Shown piece after piece: positions 20,552 through 45,019 of a DNA stretch of 64,000 nucleotides (positions are counted from its first letter, which is position 1; each line of letters begins with the position of its first letter). Location of the stretch: the IMG/VR virus record IMGVR_UViG_3300029319_000002, positions 79,110-143,109 of that record; one strand, given 5' to 3'. The stretch comes from a virus. The notes beneath the pieces were generated by a model. It saw nothing but the letters and a program-made list of their open reading frames with translations. It was not told the DNA's origin and searched no databases. A program made the position numbers and the translations under genes.

Positions 20552-22507
20552 ATGAGTTTTTTAAGAGTCACAAATATACAAGATCTTAATGGTAACAATA
20601 CTGTTGCTATTACAAGTGCTTCTAGTGGAAATCTAATAGTAAAAAAAGAACTACTTGGTGAAAGTGGAGCAAACTTCACTGGAGTGGGTACAATTAATAA
20701 CATTCAGATTGGTGCAGGGATTATAACCGCTACATCTGGAGTTGTTACTTTTTTTGGAGATATAACTCCAACAGACATTAATGTTTCTGGAGCAATGACT
20801 GCTGCAGGAGGATTCACAGGAGATTTAGTCGGTGATGTTACTGGTGATTTAACGGGAAATGTAGTTGGTTTTGGTGTAAGTATTGTTGGTGTTGGTAGTT
20901 TTGGAAGTCTAAGAGTTGCTGAAGGTGGTGAAAACGGAGTAACAATTAATGAGTCTGGAATACTTTTAGATCAACTTGCTGGAATTGTAACTTCACCAAC
21001 CTTTGATGGAAATTTAACTGGAAATGTCACGGGAGATGTTGAAGGAAATATCGTAGGTCAAGGGGCAAGTATTGTAGGTGTTGGAACATTTGGAAGCGTG
21101 TTCATCACCGGAATTGGAATTACTTTAAACGAATCTGGAATTAATGTCCCTACGGGTGTTATTACTGCAACATCTTTCGATGGAAATTTTGTAGGAACTA
21201 TCGATGGTAATGTTACAGGAACTGCGTCATCAGCAACGACACTAATTGATGCTGGAAATATGCTTGGAGGGACTATCAATAATGATAGATTACCTACAAC
21301 AATTATTGCAAATCTTACTGGAACAGCATCAACAGCAACTAACTTGGCAGATGCTGCTAACATCACTACTGGAACTATCAGTGATGCCAGATTACCAGAT
21401 TTAATTACATCTAATATTAATGTAGATTCTGGAATTTCTACTTTTTCCATAGTTGGTATTAGTACATTATCAGTAACCGAAGTTATTACTGGAATTGCTG
21501 ACACTGCTAATAATCTGGCAGATGCTGCCAATATCACTACTGGAACAATTAGTGATGCTAGATTACCTACAGTAATTACTTCAAATATTGATATATCAAC
21601 TGGTGATTCCACATTTAACAATGTAACTGTTGGTGGTAATTTAGTGGCAACTGCAACTACTGCCACCAATCTAGCAAATGGTGCTAATATCACTGACGGA
21701 ACAATTAGTGATGCAAGATTACCTAATACGATCACTTCCAATATCAATGCCACTGATGGATCTTCATCATTTAATGAAATAACTGTTACTACTTTAACAG
21801 TATCAGGAACCTTAACAGGAACTGCCACAACTGCTACTAATTTAGCAGATGCTGCTAATATCATCACTGGAACAATTAGTGATGCAAGATTACCAGCAGT
21901 AATTACTTCAAATATTACTGCACCATCTGGAGCATCAACATTTGATAATTTAACTGTTACTGGTACATTTACTGGAACTGCAACTACCGCAACTACCGCA
22001 ACTAATCTAGCAAATGCTGCCAATATCACTACTGGAACAATTGATGATGCAAGATTACCAGCAGTAATTACTTCAAATATTACCGCACCATCTGGAGCAT
22101 CAACATTTGATGATTTAACTGTTACTGGTACATTAACAGGAACAGCATCATCATTAGCAAATGCTGCTAACATCAATGCTGGAACAGTTGATAATGCTAG
22201 ATTACCTAATACAATCACTTCTAATATTACTGCACCAGATGGAACATCAACATTTGATAGTTTAACTGCCACTAATGTAACCGCCACTAATTTAACAGTA
22301 TCAGGAACCTTAACTGGAACAGCAACAACATTAGCTGATGCTGGTAATATTACTACCGGAACACTTAATGTTAACAGACTACCTGCGACACTTCCTGTGA
22401 ATATTGGCATTGGCACTCAAACACTTTCATTTTCAGTAGCCGATAGCACTCTTACACTTACTGTTGATGGAATAGGATCTACATCATTCACACTCACATC
22501 TGGATAA
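20552..22507 (+). CDS. Repeat-rich fibre-like structural protein between gp14 and gp15
   Basis: This 651-residue protein has no T4 counterpart at this position. After an N-terminal part with GDLVGDVTGDLTGNV-type glycine repeats, it carries about eight copies of a unit around NITTGTISDARLP.VITSNI, separated by 35 to 60 residues. Such low-complexity, regularly spaced beta repeats are typical of trimeric fibre shafts. The C-terminus is short (TLTLTVDGIGSTSFTLTSG). A neck fibre (whisker-like) or host-contact protein is inferred from its place among neck and tail-terminator genes. The opposite strand is also open for more than 1.3 kb, a by-product of the repetitive codons. Confidence 0.7.
   Translation: MSFLRVTNIQDLNGNNTVAITSASSGNLIVKKELLGESGANFTGVGTINNIQIGAGIITATSGVVTFFGDITPTDINVSGAMTAAGGFTGDLVGDVTGDLTGNVVGFGVSIVGVGSFGSLRVAEGGENGVTINESGILLDQLAGIVTSPTFDGNLTGNVTGDVEGNIVGQGASIVGVGTFGSVFITGIGITLNESGINVPTGVITATSFDGNFVGTIDGNVTGTASSATTLIDAGNMLGGTINNDRLPTTIIANLTGTASTATNLADAANITTGTISDARLPDLITSNINVDSGISTFSIVGISTLSVTEVITGIADTANNLADAANITTGTISDARLPTVITSNIDISTGDSTFNNVTVGGNLVATATTATNLANGANITDGTISDARLPNTITSNINATDGSSSFNEITVTTLTVSGTLTGTATTATNLADAANIITGTISDARLPAVITSNITAPSGASTFDNLTVTGTFTGTATTATTATNLANAANITTGTIDDARLPAVITSNITAPSGASTFDDLTVTGTLTGTASSLANAANINAGTVDNARLPNTITSNITAPDGTSTFDSLTATNVTATNLTVSGTLTGTATTLADAGNITTGTLNVNRLPATLPVNIGIGTQTLSFSVADSTLTLTVDGIGSTSFTLTSG
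21250..22400 (+). repeat. Tandem DNA repeats in the fibre-like gene
   Basis: The protein repeats are also DNA repeats. The clearest pair is 21881-21967 and 22046-22132: 87 bases with two differences and a period of 165. Further diverged copies extend on both sides. Repeats this similar are expected to change copy number by recombination. Confidence 0.8.
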
Positions 22508-23995: not shown

Positions 23996-25582
23996 ATGGG
24001 TTGGTCAGACAAATATAAAAAAACAATTGACTGTAATAACCCCAAGGGTTTTTCTCAACGTGCTCATTGCCAAGGGAAAAAGAAAAAAGTGAATGAAGAA
24101 AATGCTAAGAGATGTAAAGTAGGTTACTACTATTGCTTTACTGAAAAAAAGTGTAAAAAGATTCCTATCGGATACCATGTAGGTCGTGGTGGATATCTTG
24201 CAAAAGATAATGAAGATAGTTCCAGTGAAGATAATAAGAACGGTAAGAAAAATGGCAATGGATCTAATGGAAACGGTTCTAACGGTAATGGATCTAATGG
24301 TGGCAATGGAGGTGGAATGAGTGAAGAGCTCAATGCTGACGATAAACCATTCGTTAAAAAATTAGTTGGAAAACTAAGAAAGGGTTCTAAAACACACGCA
24401 AAACAAGCAGATGATTTAGAAAAAGCAATGAAAGAGGAGTCAAATCCTCGTATTCCTCGTAAAAAAGGTCAACCATCTAACTCCAAAAAACACTCTGATC
24501 TATATACTGATGAGAACCCCAAGGGAACTATCCATGGACTTGGTTTTAAAGATGTAACAACTGCCAAGGCAAGTGTTACAAAAATAAAAAATTCAAGTCG
24601 ATCCCATGCTCATAAAATCCAAGCAGCAGTTGCTATGGAACAAAGAGCAAGAGAAATGGGAAAAACTGCTGAAGCTGCTGTTTATCGAAAGTTTATAAAT
24701 TCAATGAAAGAAAAAACTAAGAAAATGAACGAAGGCACTCTCCATAAATGGTTCAAGGGGTCCAAATCAAAAGATGGTAAAGGTGGTTGGGTTAATGTCG
24801 TAACAGGAGGAACCTGTGCGAGTGACAAACCTGGAGAGGGAACTCCAAAGTGTGTTTCTTCTGCAAAAAGAGCAAGTATGACAAAAGCAGAAAGACTCTC
24901 TGCTGCTAGAAGAAAGAAAAAAGCAGATCCTGGACAGCAACAAAAGACTGGTGCTGCAAAACCCACATATGTTTCAACTGACCCTAAAAAGAAAATGAAA
25001 GAAGAAGCAATCCTAGAAACTAAAGACAAGAAAGGAAAAGGTAGTGGCAAGAAAGATGCCTGCTATCATAAAGTAAAGTCTCGTTATTCTGTTTGGCCAA
25101 GTGCATATGCATCTGGTGCGTTGGTCAAGTGCCGTAAGGTTGGTGCTGCAAATTGGGGAAACAAATCTGAAGAAGTCGATATTCAGGAGAAGAAAAAGGG
25201 TGGTGCTAAAAAGTGCTGGCCTGGATATAAAAAAGTTGGCACACAAAAATTATTTGGTAAAACTTATAATCGTTGTGTAAAAGCAAGTTATGAAGTTGAT
25301 GGCATGACTTTTAAAAAATTTAGAGAACTTTCGGAAGGAGCTGCCTGGACAAAAAAGTCCGGTAAGAACCCTTCAGGAGGACTAAATGAGAAGGGTCGTA
25401 AATCTTATGAAAGAGAAAATCCAGGATCAGATCTTAAGGCACCCAGCAAAAAAGTTGGCAATAAGAGAAGAGCATCATTCTGTGCAAGAATGAAAGGTAT
25501 GAAGGCAAAACTAACTTCTGCCAAAACTGCTAGAGATCCTGATAGCAGAATTAATAAATCATTGAGAGCTTGGAACTGTTAA
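23996..25582 (+). CDS. Cys/Lys-rich multi-module protein inserted between the terminase genes
   Basis: This 528-residue basic protein looks like a string of small cysteine-containing modules: (1) residues 1-30, CNNPKGFSQRAHCQGKKKK; (2) CKVGYYYCFTEKKC; (3) a Gly/Asn-rich linker; (4) a helix with KLRKGSKTHAKQADDLEKA; (5) a DUF5872-like unit around GGWVNVVTGGTCASDKPGEG; (6) ACYHKVKSRYSVWPSAYASG; (7) KKCWPGYKKVGTQ; (8) a DUF6321-like end with RRASFCARMKGM and a final LRAWNC. Similar modules recur in large phages and giant viruses, but their function is not known to me. DNA or nucleoprotein binding is inferred from charge. Its place between gp16 and gp17 suggests late expression. Family names are from memory. 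Confidence 0.65.
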   Translation: MGWSDKYKKTIDCNNPKGFSQRAHCQGKKKKVNEENAKRCKVGYYYCFTEKKCKKIPIGYHVGRGGYLAKDNEDSSSEDNKNGKKNGNGSNGNGSNGNGSNGGNGGGMSEELNADDKPFVKKLVGKLRKGSKTHAKQADDLEKAMKEESNPRIPRKKGQPSNSKKHSDLYTDENPKGTIHGLGFKDVTTAKASVTKIKNSSRSHAHKIQAAVAMEQRAREMGKTAEAAVYRKFINSMKEKTKKMNEGTLHKWFKGSKSKDGKGGWVNVVTGGTCASDKPGEGTPKCVSSAKRASMTKAERLSAARRKKKADPGQQQKTGAAKPTYVSTDPKKKMKEEAILETKDKKGKGSGKKDACYHKVKSRYSVWPSAYASGALVKCRKVGAANWGNKSEEVDIQEKKKGGAKKCWPGYKKVGTQKLFGKTYNRCVKASYEVDGMTFKKFRELSEGAAWTKKSGKNPSGGLNEKGRKSYERENPGSDLKAPSKKVGNKRRASFCARMKGMKAKLTSAKTARDPDSRINKSLRAWNC

Positions 25583-30763: not shown

Positions 30764-32401
30764 ATGGCGAATCTTTTTGGTTTTTCTTTTGATGATGAAA
30801 AAAAGAAGGGGAGTGGGAAGTTAGTATCTCCCGTTCCCCCTTCTGACGCTGATGAATCAGACTTTTATGTGCAGAGTGGATTTTATGGTCAGTATCTTGA
30901 CACTGATGGAGTTTATAAAACTGAGTTTGATTTAATTAAAAGATACCGAGAGATGTCACACTATCCTGAGTGTGATTCTGCGGTCGAAGATATTGTGAAT
31001 GAAGCAATCGTTTCCGACACTGATGATTCACCTATTGAAATTGAATTATCAAATCTAAATGCCAGTGATAAATTAAAAGATTTGATTTATGCAGAATTTA
31101 AGAATGTTAAAGAACTTCTAAACTTTGATAGATCGAGTCACGAAATTTTTAGGAATTGGTATATTGATGGAAGAATTCTCTATCATAAAGTCATAGATTT
31201 TAAAAATCCTGAGCAGGGCATTCAAGAGTTGAGACCCATTGATCCTCTTGATATTAGATATGTAAGAAAGAAAAAACAATTAGATCCAAAAACTCAAGTC
31301 ATTCAAAAAACTCTTGCTGGTGCTGGAAGTTTGGATGAACTTGAATCCGAAATTGAAGAATACTATGAGTATACTATTGATAAAGGAAAGCATGGAACTG
31401 GTGTCAAGAAAGTAAAAATTTCAAAGGAAGCAATTACATATTGCACCTCTGGTTTAGTAGATAGAAACAAGAAAACCACTCTATCTTATTTACAAAAAGC
31501 AATCAAAGCATTTAATCAACTTTATATGATTGAAGATAGTCTTGTAATTTATAGACTATCAAGAGCACCAGAACGTAGAATTTTTTACATTGATGTTGGT
31601 AATCTACCTAAAGTAAAGGCAGAACAATATCTACGTGATGTTATGTCACGTTACCGTAATAAGTTGGTATATAATGCCAACACTGGTGAGATTCGTGATG
31701 ATAAAAAATTCATGAGTATGCTAGAAGATTTCTGGCTTCCCCGTCGTGAAGGTGGTCGTGGAACAGAAATCACAACCCTCCCCGGTGGTCAAAACCTTGG
31801 AGAAATTACTGATATTGAATATTTCCAAAAGAAATTATACAGAGCACTAAGTGTTCCCGAATCTAGAATTGCAAATGATGGTGGTTTTAATCTAGGAAGA
31901 TCATCTGAGATCCTTCGTGATGAATTAAAATTCAGCAAATTTGTTTCTAGACTTAGAAAAAGATTCTCTAGATTATTCAATGATCTTCTCAGGACTCAAT
32001 TAATTCTGAAGAATATTGTCACTCCAGAAGACTGGGATAAGATGGTTGAACACATTCAGTATGATTATTTGTATGATAATCATTTCGCAGAATTAAAAAA
32101 TTCTGAACTTTTAAATGAAAGATTAGGGTTACTTACCACTATTGAACCTTATATTGGCAAATATTACTCTAATGATTACGTTAAGAGAAAAGTTCTTCGT
32201 CAAACTGAAGAGGAAATGAAAGAGATACAAGATCAAATTAAAAAAGAAATTGCTGATGGAGAAATTCCTGATCCTAATGCACCTGTTGATGAAATGGGAA
32301 ATCCTATTCCGGAGGGTGAAATGGGTATGATTGGAAAAGTTCCTATGGAACCTGAGATTGATGGTTCCGCAACTGAAGCACCTGAAGGTGGTGAGATATA
32401 A
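30764..32401 (+). CDS. gp20: Portal protein gp20
   Basis: This 545-residue protein is the T4-type portal vertex protein; the dodecamer serves as the packaging channel and head-tail connector. Recognisable parts are DLIKRYREMSHYPECDSAVE near residue 60, LYHKVIDFKNPEQGIQELRP, YRLSRAPERRIFYIDVGNLP near 270, and YFQKKLYRALSVPESRI near 360. Its size is close to T4 gp20 (524 residues). The C-terminal tail is acidic and Pro/Gly-rich. Confidence 0.95.
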   Translation: MANLFGFSFDDEKKKGSGKLVSPVPPSDADESDFYVQSGFYGQYLDTDGVYKTEFDLIKRYREMSHYPECDSAVEDIVNEAIVSDTDDSPIEIELSNLNASDKLKDLIYAEFKNVKELLNFDRSSHEIFRNWYIDGRILYHKVIDFKNPEQGIQELRPIDPLDIRYVRKKKQLDPKTQVIQKTLAGAGSLDELESEIEEYYEYTIDKGKHGTGVKKVKISKEAITYCTSGLVDRNKKTTLSYLQKAIKAFNQLYMIEDSLVIYRLSRAPERRIFYIDVGNLPKVKAEQYLRDVMSRYRNKLVYNANTGEIRDDKKFMSMLEDFWLPRREGGRGTEITTLPGGQNLGEITDIEYFQKKLYRALSVPESRIANDGGFNLGRSSEILRDELKFSKFVSRLRKRFSRLFNDLLRTQLILKNIVTPEDWDKMVEHIQYDYLYDNHFAELKNSELLNERLGLLTTIEPYIGKYYSNDYVKRKVLRQTEEEMKEIQDQIKKEIADGEIPDPNAPVDEMGNPIPEGEMGMIGKVPMEPEIDGSATEAPEGGEI

Positions 32402-32431
32402 ATAACTTTAGTAATTTATTATTAATAAATA
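32397..32431 (+). promoter_or_regulatory. Two late promoter elements after gp20
   Basis: A perfect TATAAATA (32397-32404) overlaps the gp20 stop codon, 27 bases before the next ATG. A second ATAAATA (32425-32431) abuts that ATG and could only serve later genes. Confidence 0.6.
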
Positions 32432-32638
32432 ATGGACCCTAATCTAGTCGATAAGATTATTGCAGGTGACTCTGCAGCAGAAATTTCCGATTACATCAAA
32501 GATGCTCTATTCGGAAAAGCTACAGACAAAATTGATGCATTAAGACCCGAGGTTGCTTCTTCCATTTTCAATTCATCTTTTGATGAAAAAGAAGTTGAAC
32601 CTAATGTAGAACCAGAACAATTAGAGGATCAAGAATAA
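32432..32638 (+). CDS. gp67: Prohead core protein, gp67-like
   Basis: This 68-residue protein lies between the portal and the prohead protease, the position of T4 gene 67. The N-terminal helix region (IAGDSAAEISDYIKDALFGK, then KIDALRPEVASSIF) is followed by an acidic tail (EEKEVEPNVEPEQLEDQE-like), matching the helix-plus-acidic-tail plan of gp67 (80 residues). It probably takes part in the scaffold core with gp22. It overlaps the next gene by one base (TAATG). Confidence 0.65.
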   Translation: MDPNLVDKIIAGDSAAEISDYIKDALFGKATDKIDALRPEVASSIFNSSFDEKEVEPNVEPEQLEDQE

Positions 32639-32916
32639 TGGCACTGGCATCAACAGATTTAACACCAAGTAACTATGTTCTTATTGGAAATAATGTTACC
32701 ACAATAACTTTCCAATGTCAGAGTGCTACTCCTGCTGTAATTAGTATTGCAACTACCAGTGCTGGAATAGCTACATCAACGGACGGTTTTGTTTATAATA
32801 GATTTGAAGGAGAAATGAAAAAGACGGTTACTGAATTGTCACATGATTCTGGTGCCGCATATGTTTATGCAAAAGCACTCACAGGAACTTCTAAGATTGT
32901 ATATGAAGGTGCTTGA
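32638..32916 (+). CDS. Small beta-rich protein of unknown function
   Basis: This 92-residue protein is not recognised. The sequence is Thr/Ser/Val-rich with alternating hydrophobics (NVTTITFQCQSATPAVISIA), suggesting a compact beta domain such as an Ig-like or decoration fold. It is translationally coupled to the gp67-like gene and followed after three bases by the FG-GAP propeller gene. All three are probably transcribed late from the TATAAATA promoter at 32397. Confidence 0.5.
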   Translation: MALASTDLTPSNYVLIGNNVTTITFQCQSATPAVISIATTSAGIATSTDGFVYNRFEGEMKKTVTELSHDSGAAYVYAKALTGTSKIVYEGA

Positions 32917-32919
32917 TTT

Positions 32920-34107
32920 ATGTCACAATATCCATTTTTAGGATTAGGATTTAATTCTTGGACTCAAAAATTTGGTAGAGATGCAGAAGCTGCTGCTCTC
33001 ACATTAGTTGTAGGTGCTAAGTTTCAAGATAATGTAAATGGTACTGATAGAGGAGCAGTATTTATCTTTGATGTGAATGATTTAACTACTTCAACTAAAG
33101 TTATTTGTGAAACAGATACATCAATTTATGATTTCTTTTCTGACTCAGTTGCTATAGGAGATAGCAAAATTCTTGTTGGAATGCCCCAGGCAGATATTAA
33201 TGGATCTGGTTCTGGTGCCGCATATATCTACAACCTAGACGGAACTGGTGAAACTCAATTTCTTGCTTCTGATGGTGCTTCTGGTGATGGTTTTGGGATT
33301 TCAGTTGCTATAGGAAATAGTAAGATAGCTATTGGTGCCAGAGATGAGGATGAGGGTGCCAACAACGGTGGTGCAGTATATGTTTACAACCTAGATGGAA
33401 CTGGTGAGATTAAAATTACTGCTTCTGATGCTGCTAATAGTGATAGTTTCGGATCTGCAGTTGCTATAGGAAATAACAAACTTTATGTTGGTTCACCCCA
33501 GGATGATGACAACGGATCTACTTCTGGTTCAGTATATATCTACAACCTAGACGGAACTGGTGAAGTTAAACTTACTCCTTCTGATGGTCGTTCCTTTGCA
33601 CGTTTTGGTAACGCACTTGCCTTTGGACATGATAAACTTGTAGTTGGAGCATATGCGGATGATCCTGCTGGAAGTCCTCCAGCTGGTGGATCTGTTTATG
33701 TTTATGATGCTGATGGAACAAATGAAGTTAAGATAAGATCATCTGATATTGCTAGCAATGATGATTTTGGACATGCGGTTGCTATCGGAAACAATAAAAT
33801 TGTTGTTGGTGCTCCATCTAATGATGATGATGGATCTGGTTCTGGTTCAGCATATGTTTTCAACCTAGACGGAACTGGTCAGGTTAAGATTACTGCTTCT
33901 GATGCAGCTGCAGATGACAATTTTGGTTCTTCTGTTGCTATCGGTGGTGATAAAATTTATGTTGGTGCAAGATATGAAGATAATGCAAATGGAACTAATT
34001 CTGGTGCATTTTACGTTTATAATCTAGACGGAACTGGTGAAGTTAAAGTTATAAATCCAGAAAACGATAATTATGCTGTATTTGGATGGTCAATGGCATT
34101 AGGATAA
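32920..34107 (+). CDS. Seven-bladed FG-GAP repeat beta-propeller protein
   Basis: This 395-residue protein consists of seven repeats of about 52 residues with the pattern FG..VAIGN.KI.VGA...D..G..SGS.Y.YNLDGTGE; examples are SAVAIGNNKLYVGSPQDDD and HAVAIGNNKIVVGAPSNDDD. Blades 2-7 carry Asp/Asn-rich loops like the calcium-binding loops of integrin FG-GAP propellers. The last FGWSMALG closes the ring with the N-terminal strand. There is no T4 homologue at this site. It is probably a virion-displayed or host-binding protein, inferred from fold and late-gene location. No signal peptide is visible. Confidence 0.7.
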   Translation: MSQYPFLGLGFNSWTQKFGRDAEAAALTLVVGAKFQDNVNGTDRGAVFIFDVNDLTTSTKVICETDTSIYDFFSDSVAIGDSKILVGMPQADINGSGSGAAYIYNLDGTGETQFLASDGASGDGFGISVAIGNSKIAIGARDEDEGANNGGAVYVYNLDGTGEIKITASDAANSDSFGSAVAIGNNKLYVGSPQDDDNGSTSGSVYIYNLDGTGEVKLTPSDGRSFARFGNALAFGHDKLVVGAYADDPAGSPPAGGSVYVYDADGTNEVKIRSSDIASNDDFGHAVAIGNNKIVVGAPSNDDDGSGSGSAYVFNLDGTGQVKITASDAAADDNFGSSVAIGGDKIYVGARYEDNANGTNSGAFYVYNLDGTGEVKVINPENDNYAVFGWSMALG

Positions 34108-34117
34108 ATACACAATT

Positions 34118-34125
34118 TATAAATA
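34118..34125 (+). promoter_or_regulatory. Perfect late promoter TATAAATA (ancestral gp21 promoter)
   Basis: An exact T4 late consensus lies 33 bases before the truncated gp21 start copy at 34151, with an AAAGGACC ribosome site between. A near match (GATAAATA) lies at 34103-34110. By position this was probably the original gp21 promoter; it now drives the vestigial 11-codon reading frame and the 102-residue gene. Confidence 0.65.
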
Positions 34126-34150
34126 ACAAATAAAGGACCAAGTTTTTAAC

Positions 34151-34186
34151 ATGAAACTTATCACAGAAGAAATCGAATCAGTTTAA
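34151..34186 (+). pseudogene. Duplicated 5' end of gp21, stops after 11 codons
   Basis: The first 32 bases (34151-34182) are identical to the first 32 bases of the intact gp21 gene (34537-34568). Here the frame reads MKLITEEIESV and stops at once. It retains a ribosome site and late promoter upstream. It is best read as a scar of insertion of the next gene into the gp21 start region. Confidence 0.85.
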
Positions 34187-34199
34187 GAAAAATATAATT

Positions 34200-34508
34200 A
34201 TGCCAGGACCATTTTTTAGATTTACAGATGAAGCAGAATGGTTAAATGCTGCTCGTGCTGCTGGTTTTATGATTACTGTTACCGATGGAGAAGGTAACGA
34301 AACTGAACAACTACAAGCATATACAGCAAATTATGCTATTGATGTTATTGGAATAATCTGTGAAGGTGGTGAATGGGATGATGAAGGTAACGTAACTGTA
34401 GAACCAACAACATTGAGTGGATGGCATGTTAATTATCTTGGAGACCTTCCAACAGGATGGGAATCTTATGAAGTTACACCAGCAACTCCTCATAGAGTGT
34501 TCGCATAA
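34200..34508 (+). CDS. Small inserted protein ahead of gp21
   Basis: This 102-residue acidic protein has an N-terminal helix (FTDEAEWLNAARAAGFMI), a beta-rich middle with DGEGNETEQ and GGEWDDEGNV, and a C-terminal GWHVNYLGDLPTGWESY ending in TPATPHRVFA. I recall similar small proteins beside structural or fibre genes of other phages, but I cannot assign a function. It sits precisely between a truncated copy and the intact copy of the gp21 start, so it is probably a recent or mobile addition. The GTTTAAG junction lies 18 bases upstream. Confidence 0.65.
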   Translation: MPGPFFRFTDEAEWLNAARAAGFMITVTDGEGNETEQLQAYTANYAIDVIGIICEGGEWDDEGNVTVEPTTLSGWHVNYLGDLPTGWESYEVTPATPHRVFA

Positions 34509-34515
34509 CTAAATA
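34508..34515 (+). promoter_or_regulatory. Late promoter-like element for gp21
   Basis: ACTAAATA overlaps the stop of the inserted gene, 22 bases before the intact gp21 start. CTAAATA is a variant of the late element reported for cyanophages. It is weaker than the displaced TATAAATA at 34118. Confidence 0.4.
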
Positions 34516-34536
34516 CTTATTAAAAGTGTAGATAAA

Positions 34537-34568
34537 ATGAAACTTATCACAGAAGAAATCGAATCAGT
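34537..34568 (+). repeat. Second copy of the 32-bp gp21-start direct repeat
   Basis: Identical to 34151-34182; the repeat period is 386 bases. The first base after the repeat differs (A here, T in the first copy), which fixes its right edge; sequence to the left of the ATG is not shared. Confidence 0.9.
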
Positions 34569-35187
34569 AGAATTTATCGTTGAAGAACGCAACGGTAAGA
34601 AGTCAATGTTTATTGAGGGTATTTTCCTTCAAGGTGATATTGCAAACCGCAACAGAAGAATGTATCCTATGGATACTCTTCGCAAGGAAGTTGCGAGATA
34701 TGATGAAAATTTCGTTCAAAAAGGTCGTGCTTTAGGTGAACTCGGACATCCCGAAGGTCCTACAGTAAACCTAGATCGTGTTTCTCATAAAATTGTTTCC
34801 CTTAAAGAAAGTGGAAGCAACTTTGTCGGAAAGGCAAAACTTCTTGATACACCTATGGGCAATATTGCTAAATCACTAATCGGTGAAGGTGTAAAATTAG
34901 GAGTTTCTTCCAGAGGAATGGGATCACTAAGAGCAACAAAAGAAGGTATCAATGTGGTTGAAAGTGACTTCATGCTTGCAACTGCTGCTGATATTGTTGC
35001 CGATCCTTCCGCTCCAGATGCTTTCGTCGATGGTATTATGGAAGGTAAGGATTGGGTGATGGAAGGTGGTATTATTCGTGAAAAATTAGTCGAAAAGACT
35101 TATAAAGAGATTAATACCTTAGTTGATGAGAGAAGTTTACAAGAAAATAAGTTAAAACTATTTCAAAACTTCCTCTCAAATCTATAA
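34537..35187 (+). CDS. gp21: Prohead core protease gp21
   Basis: This 216-residue serine protease processes the prohead scaffold and gp23. Its likely catalytic segments are GELGHPEGP (His, near residue 71) and LGVSSRGMG (Ser, near 128), as in the herpesvirus-assemblin-like T4 gp21 (212 residues). IANRNRRMYPMDTLRKEVAR is typical of the family. The gene is intact despite the duplicated start region upstream. gp22 and gp23 follow, as in T4. Confidence 0.93.
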   Translation: MKLITEEIESVEFIVEERNGKKSMFIEGIFLQGDIANRNRRMYPMDTLRKEVARYDENFVQKGRALGELGHPEGPTVNLDRVSHKIVSLKESGSNFVGKAKLLDTPMGNIAKSLIGEGVKLGVSSRGMGSLRATKEGINVVESDFMLATAADIVADPSAPDAFVDGIMEGKDWVMEGGIIREKLVEKTYKEINTLVDERSLQENKLKLFQNFLSNL

Positions 35188-35190
35188 TAA

Positions 35191-35198
35191 TATAAATA
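35191..35198 (+). promoter_or_regulatory. Perfect late promoter TATAAATA for gp22/gp23
   Basis: An exact late consensus lies four bases after the gp21 stop and 42 bases before gp22. It probably gives the abundant late transcript for scaffold and major capsid protein. Confidence 0.7.
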
Positions 35199-35239
35199 AA
35201 TTTAGAAAAACTTAGTCGAGAACACACTCGGAGCAAGAA

Positions 35240-36295
35240 ATGTCTATTGGAAACTCTTTACAAGAAATGGAAAACGCAGTTACTAAAAATGCTGCCGCAG
35301 CTGACCCAATGCAAAGTGTACCTACTTCTGTAGTTGCAGGTCAGTCAATTGAAGATCTTGGTGGTCCTACTCCCGAGAACTATAAAACTGATGATGATTC
35401 CGCAAAACTAAAAGATCCAGGTTCCACACTTGCAAAAGTTCGTGATGCCGTTAACAAAGGTGCAAAAGCACCCGATCCTATGAAGACTGTTAACAAAGGT
35501 GTTGCCAAAGAAGAGGTTGAAGAAACTTCTGAAGAGGTGGTTGCCGAATCTGAAGTTGAGGAAGAAGTTGTTTCAGTTGATGAGGATATAACTGCTTTAC
35601 TTTCCGGTGAAGAGTTATCTGAAGAATTCCAAGAGAAAGCTAAGTTAATCTTTGAAGCAGCAATTGCTTCTAAAGTTGCTGAATCCGTAAAACAAATCGA
35701 AGAAAAATATGAGGAGAAACTCGTAGAGGAACTCTCCACATATAAAGAAGAACTCGTAGAAAGAGTTGACTCTTATCTAGAGTACGTCTCCGAGGAGTGG
35801 ATTCAGGAAAACAGAATTGAGATCGAAAAAGGTCTCAAGTCTGAAATGACCGAATCATTCCTTGCTGGAATGAGAGGACTTTTTGAAGAACATTATGTAT
35901 CAATCCCTGAAGATAAGTATGATGTTGTAGAAAATATGGTAGAAAAACTTGATGAAATGGAGTCCAGACTCAATGAGCAGATTGAGAAGAACATTACTCT
36001 AAATCAGAGACTTGGTGAGTCCGTCGCAGATAACATCCTTGCTGATGTTTGCGAAGGTCTTGCTGTTTCTCAGAAAGAGAAAATGGCTTCCCTAGCTGAA
36101 GGTGTTGAGTTTGAAAGTGAAGAAAAGTACCGTGAAAGTTTAAAGACTCTCAAGGAATCATATTTCCCTGCTAAGTCTACTACTGAGGAAACTGAAACTC
36201 CTCAAATGGTTTCTGAGGAAGCATCCTCTGAAGCTCCTGCTGGATCTTCAATGAATGCATATCTCAAAGCACTTCAATTCACCACTAAAAATTAA
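35240..36295 (+). CDS. gp22: Prohead core scaffold gp22
   Basis: This 351-residue, highly acidic, helical protein has the gp22 layout: a disordered N-terminal third rich in Glu/Val (EEVEETSEEVVAESEVEEEV-like), a coiled-coil middle (KQIEEKYEEKLVEELSTYKE), and a C-terminal region with NQRLGESVADNILADVCEGL. It is longer than T4 gp22 (269 residues). It forms the internal scaffold and is degraded by gp21. It lies 12 bases before gp23. Confidence 0.88.
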   Translation: MSIGNSLQEMENAVTKNAAAADPMQSVPTSVVAGQSIEDLGGPTPENYKTDDDSAKLKDPGSTLAKVRDAVNKGAKAPDPMKTVNKGVAKEEVEETSEEVVAESEVEEEVVSVDEDITALLSGEELSEEFQEKAKLIFEAAIASKVAESVKQIEEKYEEKLVEELSTYKEELVERVDSYLEYVSEEWIQENRIEIEKGLKSEMTESFLAGMRGLFEEHYVSIPEDKYDVVENMVEKLDEMESRLNEQIEKNITLNQRLGESVADNILADVCEGLAVSQKEKMASLAEGVEFESEEKYRESLKTLKESYFPAKSTTEETETPQMVSEEASSEAPAGSSMNAYLKALQFTTKN

Positions 36296-36307
36296 TTTCC
36301 TAAGCAA

Positions 36308-37687
36308 ATGCAAGATTCACACATGCTAACGGAAAAGTGGGCTCCCCTTCTTGATTATCAAGGTGCGGAAGCTATCACCGATCCCCACAGACGTGCAGTT
36401 ACTGCACAACTACTAGAGAACCAAGAAAAGTTCCAACAAGAAAGCCGTGCTTTCCAGGAAGGTGGTTCAATGCTTTCTGAAGCACCCACCAATGTAACTG
36501 GTTCTTCAATCGATAATTTCGATCCCGTCTTGATCTCCTTGATCAGACGTTCTATGCCCAACCTCATTGCATATGATGTTGCCGGTGTCCAACCTATGAA
36601 TGGACCTACTGGACTCATCTTTGCGATGCGTGCTCGTTTCAACAGCCAGACTGGTTCTGAAGCACTATTCAACGAAGCAGATTCCGCATTCTCTGCTCAG
36701 GACTCCGGATTTGATGTTACTTCTGGTGACTATACCGGTGGTACTGATGGTGATGCTTCTGTTGGTTTCGGTACAACTGCTCAAACTGGTTCAAACCCCT
36801 CCGTTCTAGGTGCTGCTGGTGGATCTGGCACTTCCTACAACGTTGGTCAGGGTATGAGCACAGCAGATGCTGAAGCTCTAGGAGATACTGGAGACCTCTT
36901 CAACGAGATGGCCTTCAGCATCGAGAAGGTTACTGTAACTGCTAAGTCCAGAGCCCTCAAAGCTGAGTACTCCTTAGAACTAGCACAAGACCTCAAGGCA
37001 ATCCACGGTCTAAGTGCTGAGTCTGAGCTCTCCAACATCCTCTCCTCTGAGATTCTTTCTGAAATCAACAGAGAAGTCGTTCGTACAATCTACAAGGTTG
37101 CACGTCCTGGTGCTCAGGCAAATGTCTCCACTGCTGGTCAGTTTGACCTAGACATCGACAGCAACGGTCGTTGGAGTGTTGAGAAGTTTAAGGGTCTACT
37201 CTTCCAAATCGAAAGAGATGCAAACGCAATCGCACAAGAGACTCGTAGAGGAAAGGGCAATATCATCATCACTTCTGCTGATGTTGCTTCTGCTCTAACC
37301 ATGGCTGGTGTTCTCGACTACACCCCTGCCCTCAATGCTAACCTACAGGTTGATGCTACTGGCAACCTATTTGCTGGTACAATCAACGGTAAGTACAAGG
37401 TATACATCGATCCCTTCGGTTCTGCCGCAGGTGATGCTAACCAGTACTACGTTGTTGGTTACAAGGGTACTAGCCCCTATGATGCTGGTCTCTTCTATTG
37501 CCCCTACGTTCCCCTCCAGATGGTTCGTGCCGTTGGAGAGAACTCCTTCCAGCCCAAGATTGGCTTCAAGACTCGTTACGGTATGGTTGCTAACCCCTTC
37601 GCAGAAGGAACAACAGCTGCCCTCGGTGCTATCAAGGCTAACACCAACCGTTACTACAGACGTGCAATCGTCAAGAACCTCATGTGA
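36308..37687 (+). CDS. gp23: Major capsid protein gp23
   Basis: This 459-residue HK97-fold capsid protein shows the T4 gp23 signatures: LTEKWAPLLD near the start, ENQEKF, SLIRRSMPNLIAYDVAGVQP and NGPTGLIFAMRARF. The likely gp21 cleavage site is MLSE before APTN near residue 60, fitting the family's hydrophobic-x-Glu rule. A second start, Met6 at 36323, is possible; neither has a good ribosome site. The coding sequence is markedly richer in C-ending codons than its neighbours, as expected for the most highly expressed late gene. A strong terminator follows. Confidence 0.96.
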   Translation: MQDSHMLTEKWAPLLDYQGAEAITDPHRRAVTAQLLENQEKFQQESRAFQEGGSMLSEAPTNVTGSSIDNFDPVLISLIRRSMPNLIAYDVAGVQPMNGPTGLIFAMRARFNSQTGSEALFNEADSAFSAQDSGFDVTSGDYTGGTDGDASVGFGTTAQTGSNPSVLGAAGGSGTSYNVGQGMSTADAEALGDTGDLFNEMAFSIEKVTVTAKSRALKAEYSLELAQDLKAIHGLSAESELSNILSSEILSEINREVVRTIYKVARPGAQANVSTAGQFDLDIDSNGRWSVEKFKGLLFQIERDANAIAQETRRGKGNIIITSADVASALTMAGVLDYTPALNANLQVDATGNLFAGTINGKYKVYIDPFGSAAGDANQYYVVGYKGTSPYDAGLFYCPYVPLQMVRAVGENSFQPKIGFKTRYGMVANPFAEGTTAALGAIKANTNRYYRRAIVKNLM

Positions 37688-44317: not shown

Positions 44318-45019
44318 ATGTTTAATCCAGATTTTGAGGTAATTAAAGTTTTTTCTAAAAAGACCGCAAGAAAAATAGTAGATCATATAAAGAAAGAGGG
44401 TGAGTGGCAAGATGGATTAAAGTCCACTCATGGAATGACAAATGAAACTAAGAATAATTTAGAATTAAAAAATTGTACTGAGTATGCAGAATATATCAGA
44501 CAAAAATTAAAGGGAGTTGACAAATATGAAATGTTTGCCTTGAGAAGTTCTACTACAACTCCAATTATTAGTAAAACTGGTGTTGGTCAATACTATAACC
44601 TACACACTGATGACCCCATAGTTGGTGACATTAGTACCACAACTTTTCTATCAAATCCTTCTGACTATGAAGGTGGAGAATTGTGTATATTCATTGGTGG
44701 TGAAGTTAAAAAATTTAAACTGGATGCTGGTTGGGCAGTAGTTTATAATCGAGGAGTTCCTCATCAAGTTCAAACAGTTACTTCTGGAGAGAGAATTGTT
44801 GCTGTCAATTGGTGTAGAAGTATGATTGGAGACTACTCTAAAAGAGTTAAAGTTAGAAAACTTTTTCATCTCAGAGAGAGATTAAAGCAGGAATTTCCAG
44901 AATTTAAAAAAGATAAATCTCTTTCTATTGAAGAAGGTCTTGATGATCCATGGTGGTTACTACATGATTTGTGTAGTGAGACTATGAATGAATATCGACA
45001 GGACATACGGACCAATTAG
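44318..45019 (+). CDS. 2OG-Fe(II) oxygenase, PKHD-hydroxylase type
   Basis: This 233-residue protein has the iron ligands H96, D98 (YYNLHTDDP) and H149 (GVPHQVQTV), and R159 (SGERIVAVNW) for 2-oxoglutarate. EGGELCIFIGG, before the distal histidine, is typical of PiuC/prolyl-4-hydroxylase-type enzymes. Such oxygenases are common in cyanophages; the substrate is unknown. ATG at 44318 is preferred over an in-frame GTG two codons upstream. It overlaps no gene downstream; a promoter follows. Confidence 0.82.
   Translation: MFNPDFEVIKVFSKKTARKIVDHIKKEGEWQDGLKSTHGMTNETKNNLELKNCTEYAEYIRQKLKGVDKYEMFALRSSTTTPIISKTGVGQYYNLHTDDPIVGDISTTTFLSNPSDYEGGELCIFIGGEVKKFKLDAGWAVVYNRGVPHQVQTVTSGERIVAVNWCRSMIGDYSKRVKVRKLFHLRERLKQEFPEFKKDKSLSIEEGLDDPWWLLHDLCSETMNEYRQDIRTN

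Follow-up and report, generated by a model that had tools for sequence, protein, structure and literature searches.

The window, by which we mean the whole 64,000-nucleotide (nt) stretch of marine virus DNA that was analyzed, contains a variable interval bounded by two genes on the plus strand: gp20, which encodes the portal (positions 30764 to 32401) and forms the left edge of the interval, and gp21, which encodes the head maturation protease (34537 to 35187). The portal gene was recognized from the list of open reading frames (ORFs), aligns by blastn to the related contigs L037 to L044, and matches portal genes annotated in named phages. In the same list, gp21 is an intact frame of 216 amino acids (aa), assigned to phrog_207 and to the Pfam family Peptidase_S77 (E value of 4.1e-33). 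After gp20 come a small 68-aa gene of unknown function (32432 to 32638; phrog_14164/2088), whose family is present in most relatives, then a 92-aa gene (32638 to 32916), and then a gene for a 395-aa adhesin that resembles FG-GAP beta-propellers (32920 to 34107; PF14312, E value of 1.2e-84). A 2OG-Fe(II) oxygenase-like gene lies further along the window (44318 to 45019). The DNA between 24000 and 48000 is similar to 322 phage records whose names are nearly all those of Synechococcus phages, cyanophages, or Prochlorococcus phages, and, judged from these similar records, the host is likely a cyanobacterium.

Between the adhesin gene and the body of gp21, the beginning of gp21 occurs twice. Direct comparison within the window shows that positions 34151 to 34182 (copy 1) and 34537 to 34568 (copy 2) are identical at 32 of 32 bases with a spacing of 386 nt, the match becoming 35 of 36 when begun 4 bases further upstream. 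Copy 1, read in frame, gives an 11-codon stub of gp21 (MKLITEEIESV) closed by a TAA stop (34151 to 34186), and copy 2 opens the intact protease. An AT-rich joint (34183 to 34202) follows copy 1 and includes the ATG of a 102-aa gene (34200 to 34508; phrog_18574). Ahead of copy 1 lie the late-promoter-like motif TATAAATA (34118 to 34125) and AAAGGA, a stretch resembling a ribosome site (34132 to 34137); ahead of copy 2, and 28 nt before the real gp21 start, lies a second late-promoter-like motif, CTAAATA (34509 to 34515). All of these features are on the plus strand. They agree with the original prediction in the 32-base duplication and its spacing, the arrested upstream copy and the intact downstream one, the 102-residue gene between them, and the placement of TATAAATA and the ribosome site before the upstream copy; the CTAAATA motif and the FG-GAP gene go beyond what it had described.

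Among the 12 pairs of exact direct repeats of at least 20 nt in the 64-kb window, the gp21-start repeat ranks second in length. The remaining 11 pairs are confined to two repeat-rich genes, the FG-GAP gene and one at 21522 to 22314, where internal direct repeats of up to 39 bases recur at spacings of 165 to 498 within a 651-aa ORF that has no Pfam match at an E value of 0.001.

Leaders and predicted expression

A T4-like late promoter would be expected to show a TATAAATA-like motif some 30 nt ahead of a late gene. Both TATAAATA at 34118 and CTAAATA at 34509 are well placed before their starts, and the totals of these motifs over the window are not above chance: TATAAATA occurs 5 times, with 7.1 expected, and CTAAATA occurs 7 times, always on the plus strand, with 17.6 expected. 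Neither is enriched window-wide, leaving position as what backs a promoter role. Three of the seven CTAAATA motifs lie 28 to 35 nt before an ORF, where simple arithmetic gives about 0.4 expected. A CTAAATA stands at -29 of a 528-aa ORF (23996 to 25582) that follows a gene of a DNA-packaging family and has a domain match (DUF6321) limited to its C-terminal 71 residues.

By its placement, the TATAAATA leader would head a transcript of the stub, the 102-aa gene, and then gp21, and CTAAATA would transcribe gp21 alone. The stop codon of the stub is 13 nt from the ATG of the 102-aa gene, a spacing that permits re-start, and the 102-aa gene would probably be read by termination and re-start after the stub. 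The original prediction that the late promoter of gp21 had been ceded to the newcomer is not supported, as gp21 has a CTAAATA leader of its own, which also stands before gp21 in other phages. A search of positions 32000 to 36500 against Rfam gave no RNA element match at gathering score. Among four stretches that were folded, a weak hairpin was found in the right leader only (z of -1.78, with 14 of 200 shuffles as good); the left leader had a z of 0.36.

gp21 loci and their genes in related phages

We sampled relatives of gp21 as the best 80 loci from each of two scans, which had yielded 547 and at least 598 confirmed candidates. Combined with the other loci collected, they gave 183 sequences with gp21 (the window and its own record, L116, included), among them 150 distinct ones, of which 144 have at least 420 nt upstream. 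A second gp21 start, defined by at least 24 of 32 bases or by a peptide pattern (so that a more diverged remnant would escape), is absent from the other 143 distinct loci with this much upstream DNA and present only in L116, which is the window's own. The next-best match in the sample reaches 23 of 32 bases and lies 1812 nt upstream, in L087; the named phage examined for a double start was S-SKS1. Among viral contigs, nothing matched a degenerate pattern made from the stub and its stop codon TAA, and a literature search by titles and abstract openings, which covers some wordings and not every one, returned no paper describing this double gp21 start.

In 122 of the 144 loci, an upstream frame of at least 70 codons ends within 5 nt of gp21 and the late-promoter motif is absent. 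These abutting frames have 70 to 110 codons in 76 loci and are longer in 46, and in each of nine loci that were rechecked, the upstream gene and gp21 overlap by 1 nt. Twelve of the 144 loci, including that of the window, have a late-promoter-like motif between about -28 and -40 of gp21, and these 12, and no others, have a gene upstream that is related to the 102-aa or the 92-aa gene. They exhibit two arrangements, which we term units B and C; the leader of each directly precedes a complete gp21 in other phages.

(i) Unit B, which corresponds to the left side of the window, has the order 92-aa gene, adhesin with a PFLGLGF head, TATAAATA, and gp21. It is complete in L163, which contains a relative of the 92-aa gene (2616 to 2894; 58% identity), a 248-aa protein with the PFLGLGF head (from 2900), TATAAATA at -32, and an intact gp21. 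The adhesin is missing from two near-identical contigs, L043 and L044, in which the left-type leader, with TATAAATA and an identical AAAGGA, stands directly before intact gp21; in L043, a 93-aa relative of the 92-aa gene (51 of 93 aligned residues) directly precedes this leader. L043 and L044 thus provide the single-copy state that the original prediction had anticipated among relatives, and relative to L043, the FG-GAP gene of the window (32920 to 34107) is extra. An exact 28-base pattern from the left leader matches (28 of 28) only L043 and L044 among viral contigs, and positions 34117 to 34182 align to L043 ungapped, with 92.4% identity over 66 nt. Among 140 distinct leaders, the left leader is closest to that of L043 (as L123; 39 of 43 bases), then to L163 (32 of 43), and then to L194 (30). 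Even in L043, the nearest B leader, 4 of the 32 repeat bases differ from the window, which requires a left parent more similar to the window than all of the B phages seen. No contig examined has the order of FG-GAP gene, TATAAATA leader, and full gp21, so that the exact left parent is one that we infer.

(ii) Unit C, which corresponds to the right side, has the order fiber gene, 102-aa family gene, CTAAATA, and gp21 (L014 and others). The right leader matches at 25 or 26 of 28 bases in eight distinct viral loci, each of which has the 102-aa gene, and the next best among the 140 distinct leaders match at 21. This next-best group includes the leader of L012, a 102-aa locus in which AATAAATA replaces CTAAATA. 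The Llyrvirus isolate S-SKS1 has a C-type leader (26 of 28 identical) and also shares the 92-aa gene and the adhesin head with the window (81 of 92 aligned residues are identical in the 92-aa gene), but its gp20-gp21 interval has no gp21 stub, a different adhesin body, and an adhesin in the place of the 102-aa gene. Behind this 353-aa adhesin, S-SKS1 retains CGCATAACTAAATA (L208, 5991 to 6036), which resembles the last codons of the 102-aa gene and suggests an exchange that ended inside that gene.

The 102-aa gene lies directly before gp21 in 13 of 35 loci of its family, some of which are near-duplicates. Elsewhere, a fiber gene ends close to its start: of the 34 family loci surveyed, 22 have a frame of 150 aa or longer whose end lies between -4 and +5 nt from the start of the 102-aa family gene, 10 more have a frame of 42 to 71 codons ending at most 40 nt away, and 2 are not clear-cut (the survey of 34 excludes the cut-off loci L022, L023, L024, and L035 and adds three named phages). 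All four of the fiber partners that were scanned match phrog_5939, a tail protein. In the window, no fiber gene precedes the 102-aa gene, and its product begins with MPGPFF, where most close relatives have about 10 additional residues. From gene position only, we think it probable that the 102-aa protein serves a tail fiber as a small partner or chaperone and has here been orphaned from that fiber.

The 102-aa protein has no sequence match to PDB chains at an E value of 0.1, and its predicted structure (a fair model, with a pLDDT of 81.5 and a pTM of 0.66) has no PDB fold match at 0.001; a match to tail fiber chaperones of the Tfa or gp38 kind was found neither in Pfam nor by PDB sequence or fold. 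In a set of viral proteins, the model matched two uncharacterized phage proteins at an E value of 0.001 or better, and a single-protein query of bacterial genomes gave no close relatives. Compared with eight relatives, the gene has dN below dS each time (0.14 to 0.32 versus 0.24 to 1.94), most weakly against L008 (0.18 to 0.24), and most of this history predates the joint. The window gene has no firm placement in the family tree, and that tree names no donor for it.

The FG-GAP protein upstream looks chimeric from its alignments. Residues of about 3 to 21 resemble the heads of the 353-aa protein of S-SKS1 and the 248-aa protein of L163 from the same locus, and residues 24 to 395 are 72.7% identical to an S-TIM5 virion protein with a different head. 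At a second locus, before ThyX in S-TIM5 and S-TIM54, an FG-GAP gene and a pair consisting of a fiber gene and a 102-aa family gene replace each other, with common DNA resuming at the stop codons (95.6% identity over 1051 nt; L209 4657 to 6804 and L125 1679 to 6022). Because the FG-GAP gene and the fiber pair interchange, and because no fiber gene precedes the 102-aa gene of the window, the FG-GAP protein is probably not its partner.

Origin of the double start

Read from left to right, the window matches unit B as far as codon 11 of gp21 and, beyond the 20-nt joint, matches unit C, which it enters at roughly codon 11 of the 102-aa gene. Either side of the joint can be traced without a break into a known natural arrangement: the left leader and gp21 start are as in L043 and L163, and the right side is as in L014 and others. 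We consider it likely that the double start arose as a scar when two natural gp20-gp21 units of T4-like cyanophages recombined imprecisely, through a non-homologous joint. In such an event, a left DNA end, either incoming or broken, would have reached 32 nt into gp21 and been fused to DNA of the right unit a short way past the start of the 102-aa gene. The fusion would have cost the fiber gene and some 10 codons of the 102-aa gene, and the 11-codon stub would be its residue. The protease itself would survive because the right unit supplied a putative promoter of its own and a full gp21. This is probably a young mosaic scar and not a new mechanism.

For the joint itself (34183 to 34202), a pattern of ATAATTATG plus the start of the family motif was without a match among viral contigs. 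We set aside a templated filler as its origin: the best nearby match is 16 of 18, a value attained by 2% of 150 like stretches for the 18-mer and by 8% for the 20-mer.

The relative age of the two halves bears on which of them is the newcomer. The gp21 of L036 differs from that of the window at 43 of 648 nt, and L036 starts 19 nt before this gene; those 19 nt are the last part of the right leader, with 18 of 19 as in unit C. The presence of C-type leader nucleotides in L036 suggests that the C leader and this gp21 are the older combination and that the B piece and the stub came later. From this comparison with L036, a contig too short for proof, we infer that the half with the C leader and gp21 is probably older and the upstream half with the FG-GAP gene, TATAAATA, and stub newer. 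It is more likely, on this reading of the alignments, that the newer piece is the upstream FG-GAP unit than the 102-aa gene, which would invert the roles assigned by the original prediction. Its proposal of an insertion that rebuilt the 5' end of gp21 is upheld insofar as single-copy relatives exist and is not supported as to the 102-aa gene being a self-contained newcomer between duplicated targets: this gene stands directly before gp21 in 13 of 35 family loci, and the nine of these that are distinct and extend far enough upstream lack a second gp21 start. A joint of two gp21-linked units accounts for the duplication better than a gene rebuilding its target does.

A direct insertion, the model of the original prediction extended by homologous pairing, would require a 386-bp piece, consisting of the 102-aa gene and the CTAAATA leader, to enter an L043-like site with TATAAATA before gp21, its right side pairing through the gp21 start and its left side being joined 32 nt further in, which would duplicate 32 nt. 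L043 and L044 supply the single-copy state for such an event, perfect copies fit a duplication within a single genome, and the gp21 genes of the window and of unit C (L001 and S-SKS1) share their first 23 bases except one, a similarity sufficient for the right exchange to fall at the start codon. We nonetheless regard this route as unlikely: it requires two exchanges at one site; 18 of 19 C-type leader nucleotides are already present in L036, whose gp21 differs at 43 of 648 nt, so that this half seems older than the identical repeat; and a neutral stub as old as the split from L036 would carry about 5.5 changes (by arithmetic, at a dS of 0.34). For a stub of that age, the same arithmetic puts the chance of zero changes at about 0.004 if neutral and at about 0.35 at the pace of gp21.

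The perfect repeat is compatible with a recent event or with selection. Under selection, the double start might be retained as functional, translation of the stub behind its leader giving access to the orphaned 102-aa gene and the two 32-bp copies allowing a population to switch, by deletion, between states with and without the 102-aa fiber partner, always restoring an intact gp21 under either promoter; we hold this to be improbable.

As a further alternative, the assembly may have merged co-occurring B- and C-type strains through the gp21 start common to both. The record, of the IMG/VR kind, is a viral contig 196,048 bases long, and both leader types exist in nature, but a false path through the shared 32-mer should yield B-gp21 or C-gp21, with one start each, and would account neither for the 20-nt joint nor for the loss of the fiber gene. 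By this reasoning, an artifact is very improbable.

A tiny mobile element might also have transposed or integrated site-specifically, with the perfect direct repeats on both flanks of the segment as target-site duplications or att cores. This is scarcely credible, given that the sole gene in the segment, the 102-aa gene, has no recombinase match, that the inverted repeats in 34090 to 34620 amount to one chance-like 10-nt pair, that the nine distinct 102-aa/gp21 loci with sufficient upstream DNA have no second gp21 start, and that the segment carries a normal gp21 leader. No feature found is indicative of a mobile element. A free-standing homing endonuclease was also rejected, there being no such domain in the 15 window ORFs scanned with Pfam.

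Comparison with known systems

Mosaic joints in phages are usually blurred. Here, the start of a core gene was left as a label that reveals both parental arrangements, where they were cut, and in what order the events probably occurred. The locus also suggests that cyanophages swap adhesin and fiber units, each with its own promoter-like leader for gp21, in the gp20-gp21 interval, and it prompts a general search, ahead of variable genes, for stubs of the adjoining core gene.

Three described systems invite comparison. The PeSL cassettes of T4-like phages are described as mobile regulatory elements, with an early promoter and a stem-loop, situated between genes (PMC4503421). As in the window, short repeated regulatory DNA beside genes could serve there as a point of exchange. 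Unlike these cassettes as described, the window has late-type motifs and a weak hairpin in the right leader only (z of -1.78), and with folding z values of 0.36 and -1.78 we rejected a PeSL identity for its repeats. Pam3 gp25 and Mu Tfa are presented as small tail fiber chaperones thought to help the fiber (PMC9608196). The 102-aa family likewise follows a fiber gene, its function being suggested by position only, and its member in the window differs from these proteins in having no PDB match by sequence (E value of 0.1) or by fold (E value of 0.001).

The third comparison concerns the joint itself. In an experimental account of mosaicism in temperate phages, illegitimate recombination is given as much less frequent than relaxed homologous recombination (PMC3945230); if illegitimate joints are as rare as that account indicates, the scar in the window would be one of the rarer kind. 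In T4-related phages, mosaic joints are attributed to illegitimate recombination (PMC2993671), and the joints described there resemble the window in that they have no mobile-element signatures, leave the core gene functional, and exchange modules beside core genes. The window is unlike those joints, as described, in that it has kept a readable 32-nt piece of a core gene, which allows both parental units and the positions of the cuts to be identified.
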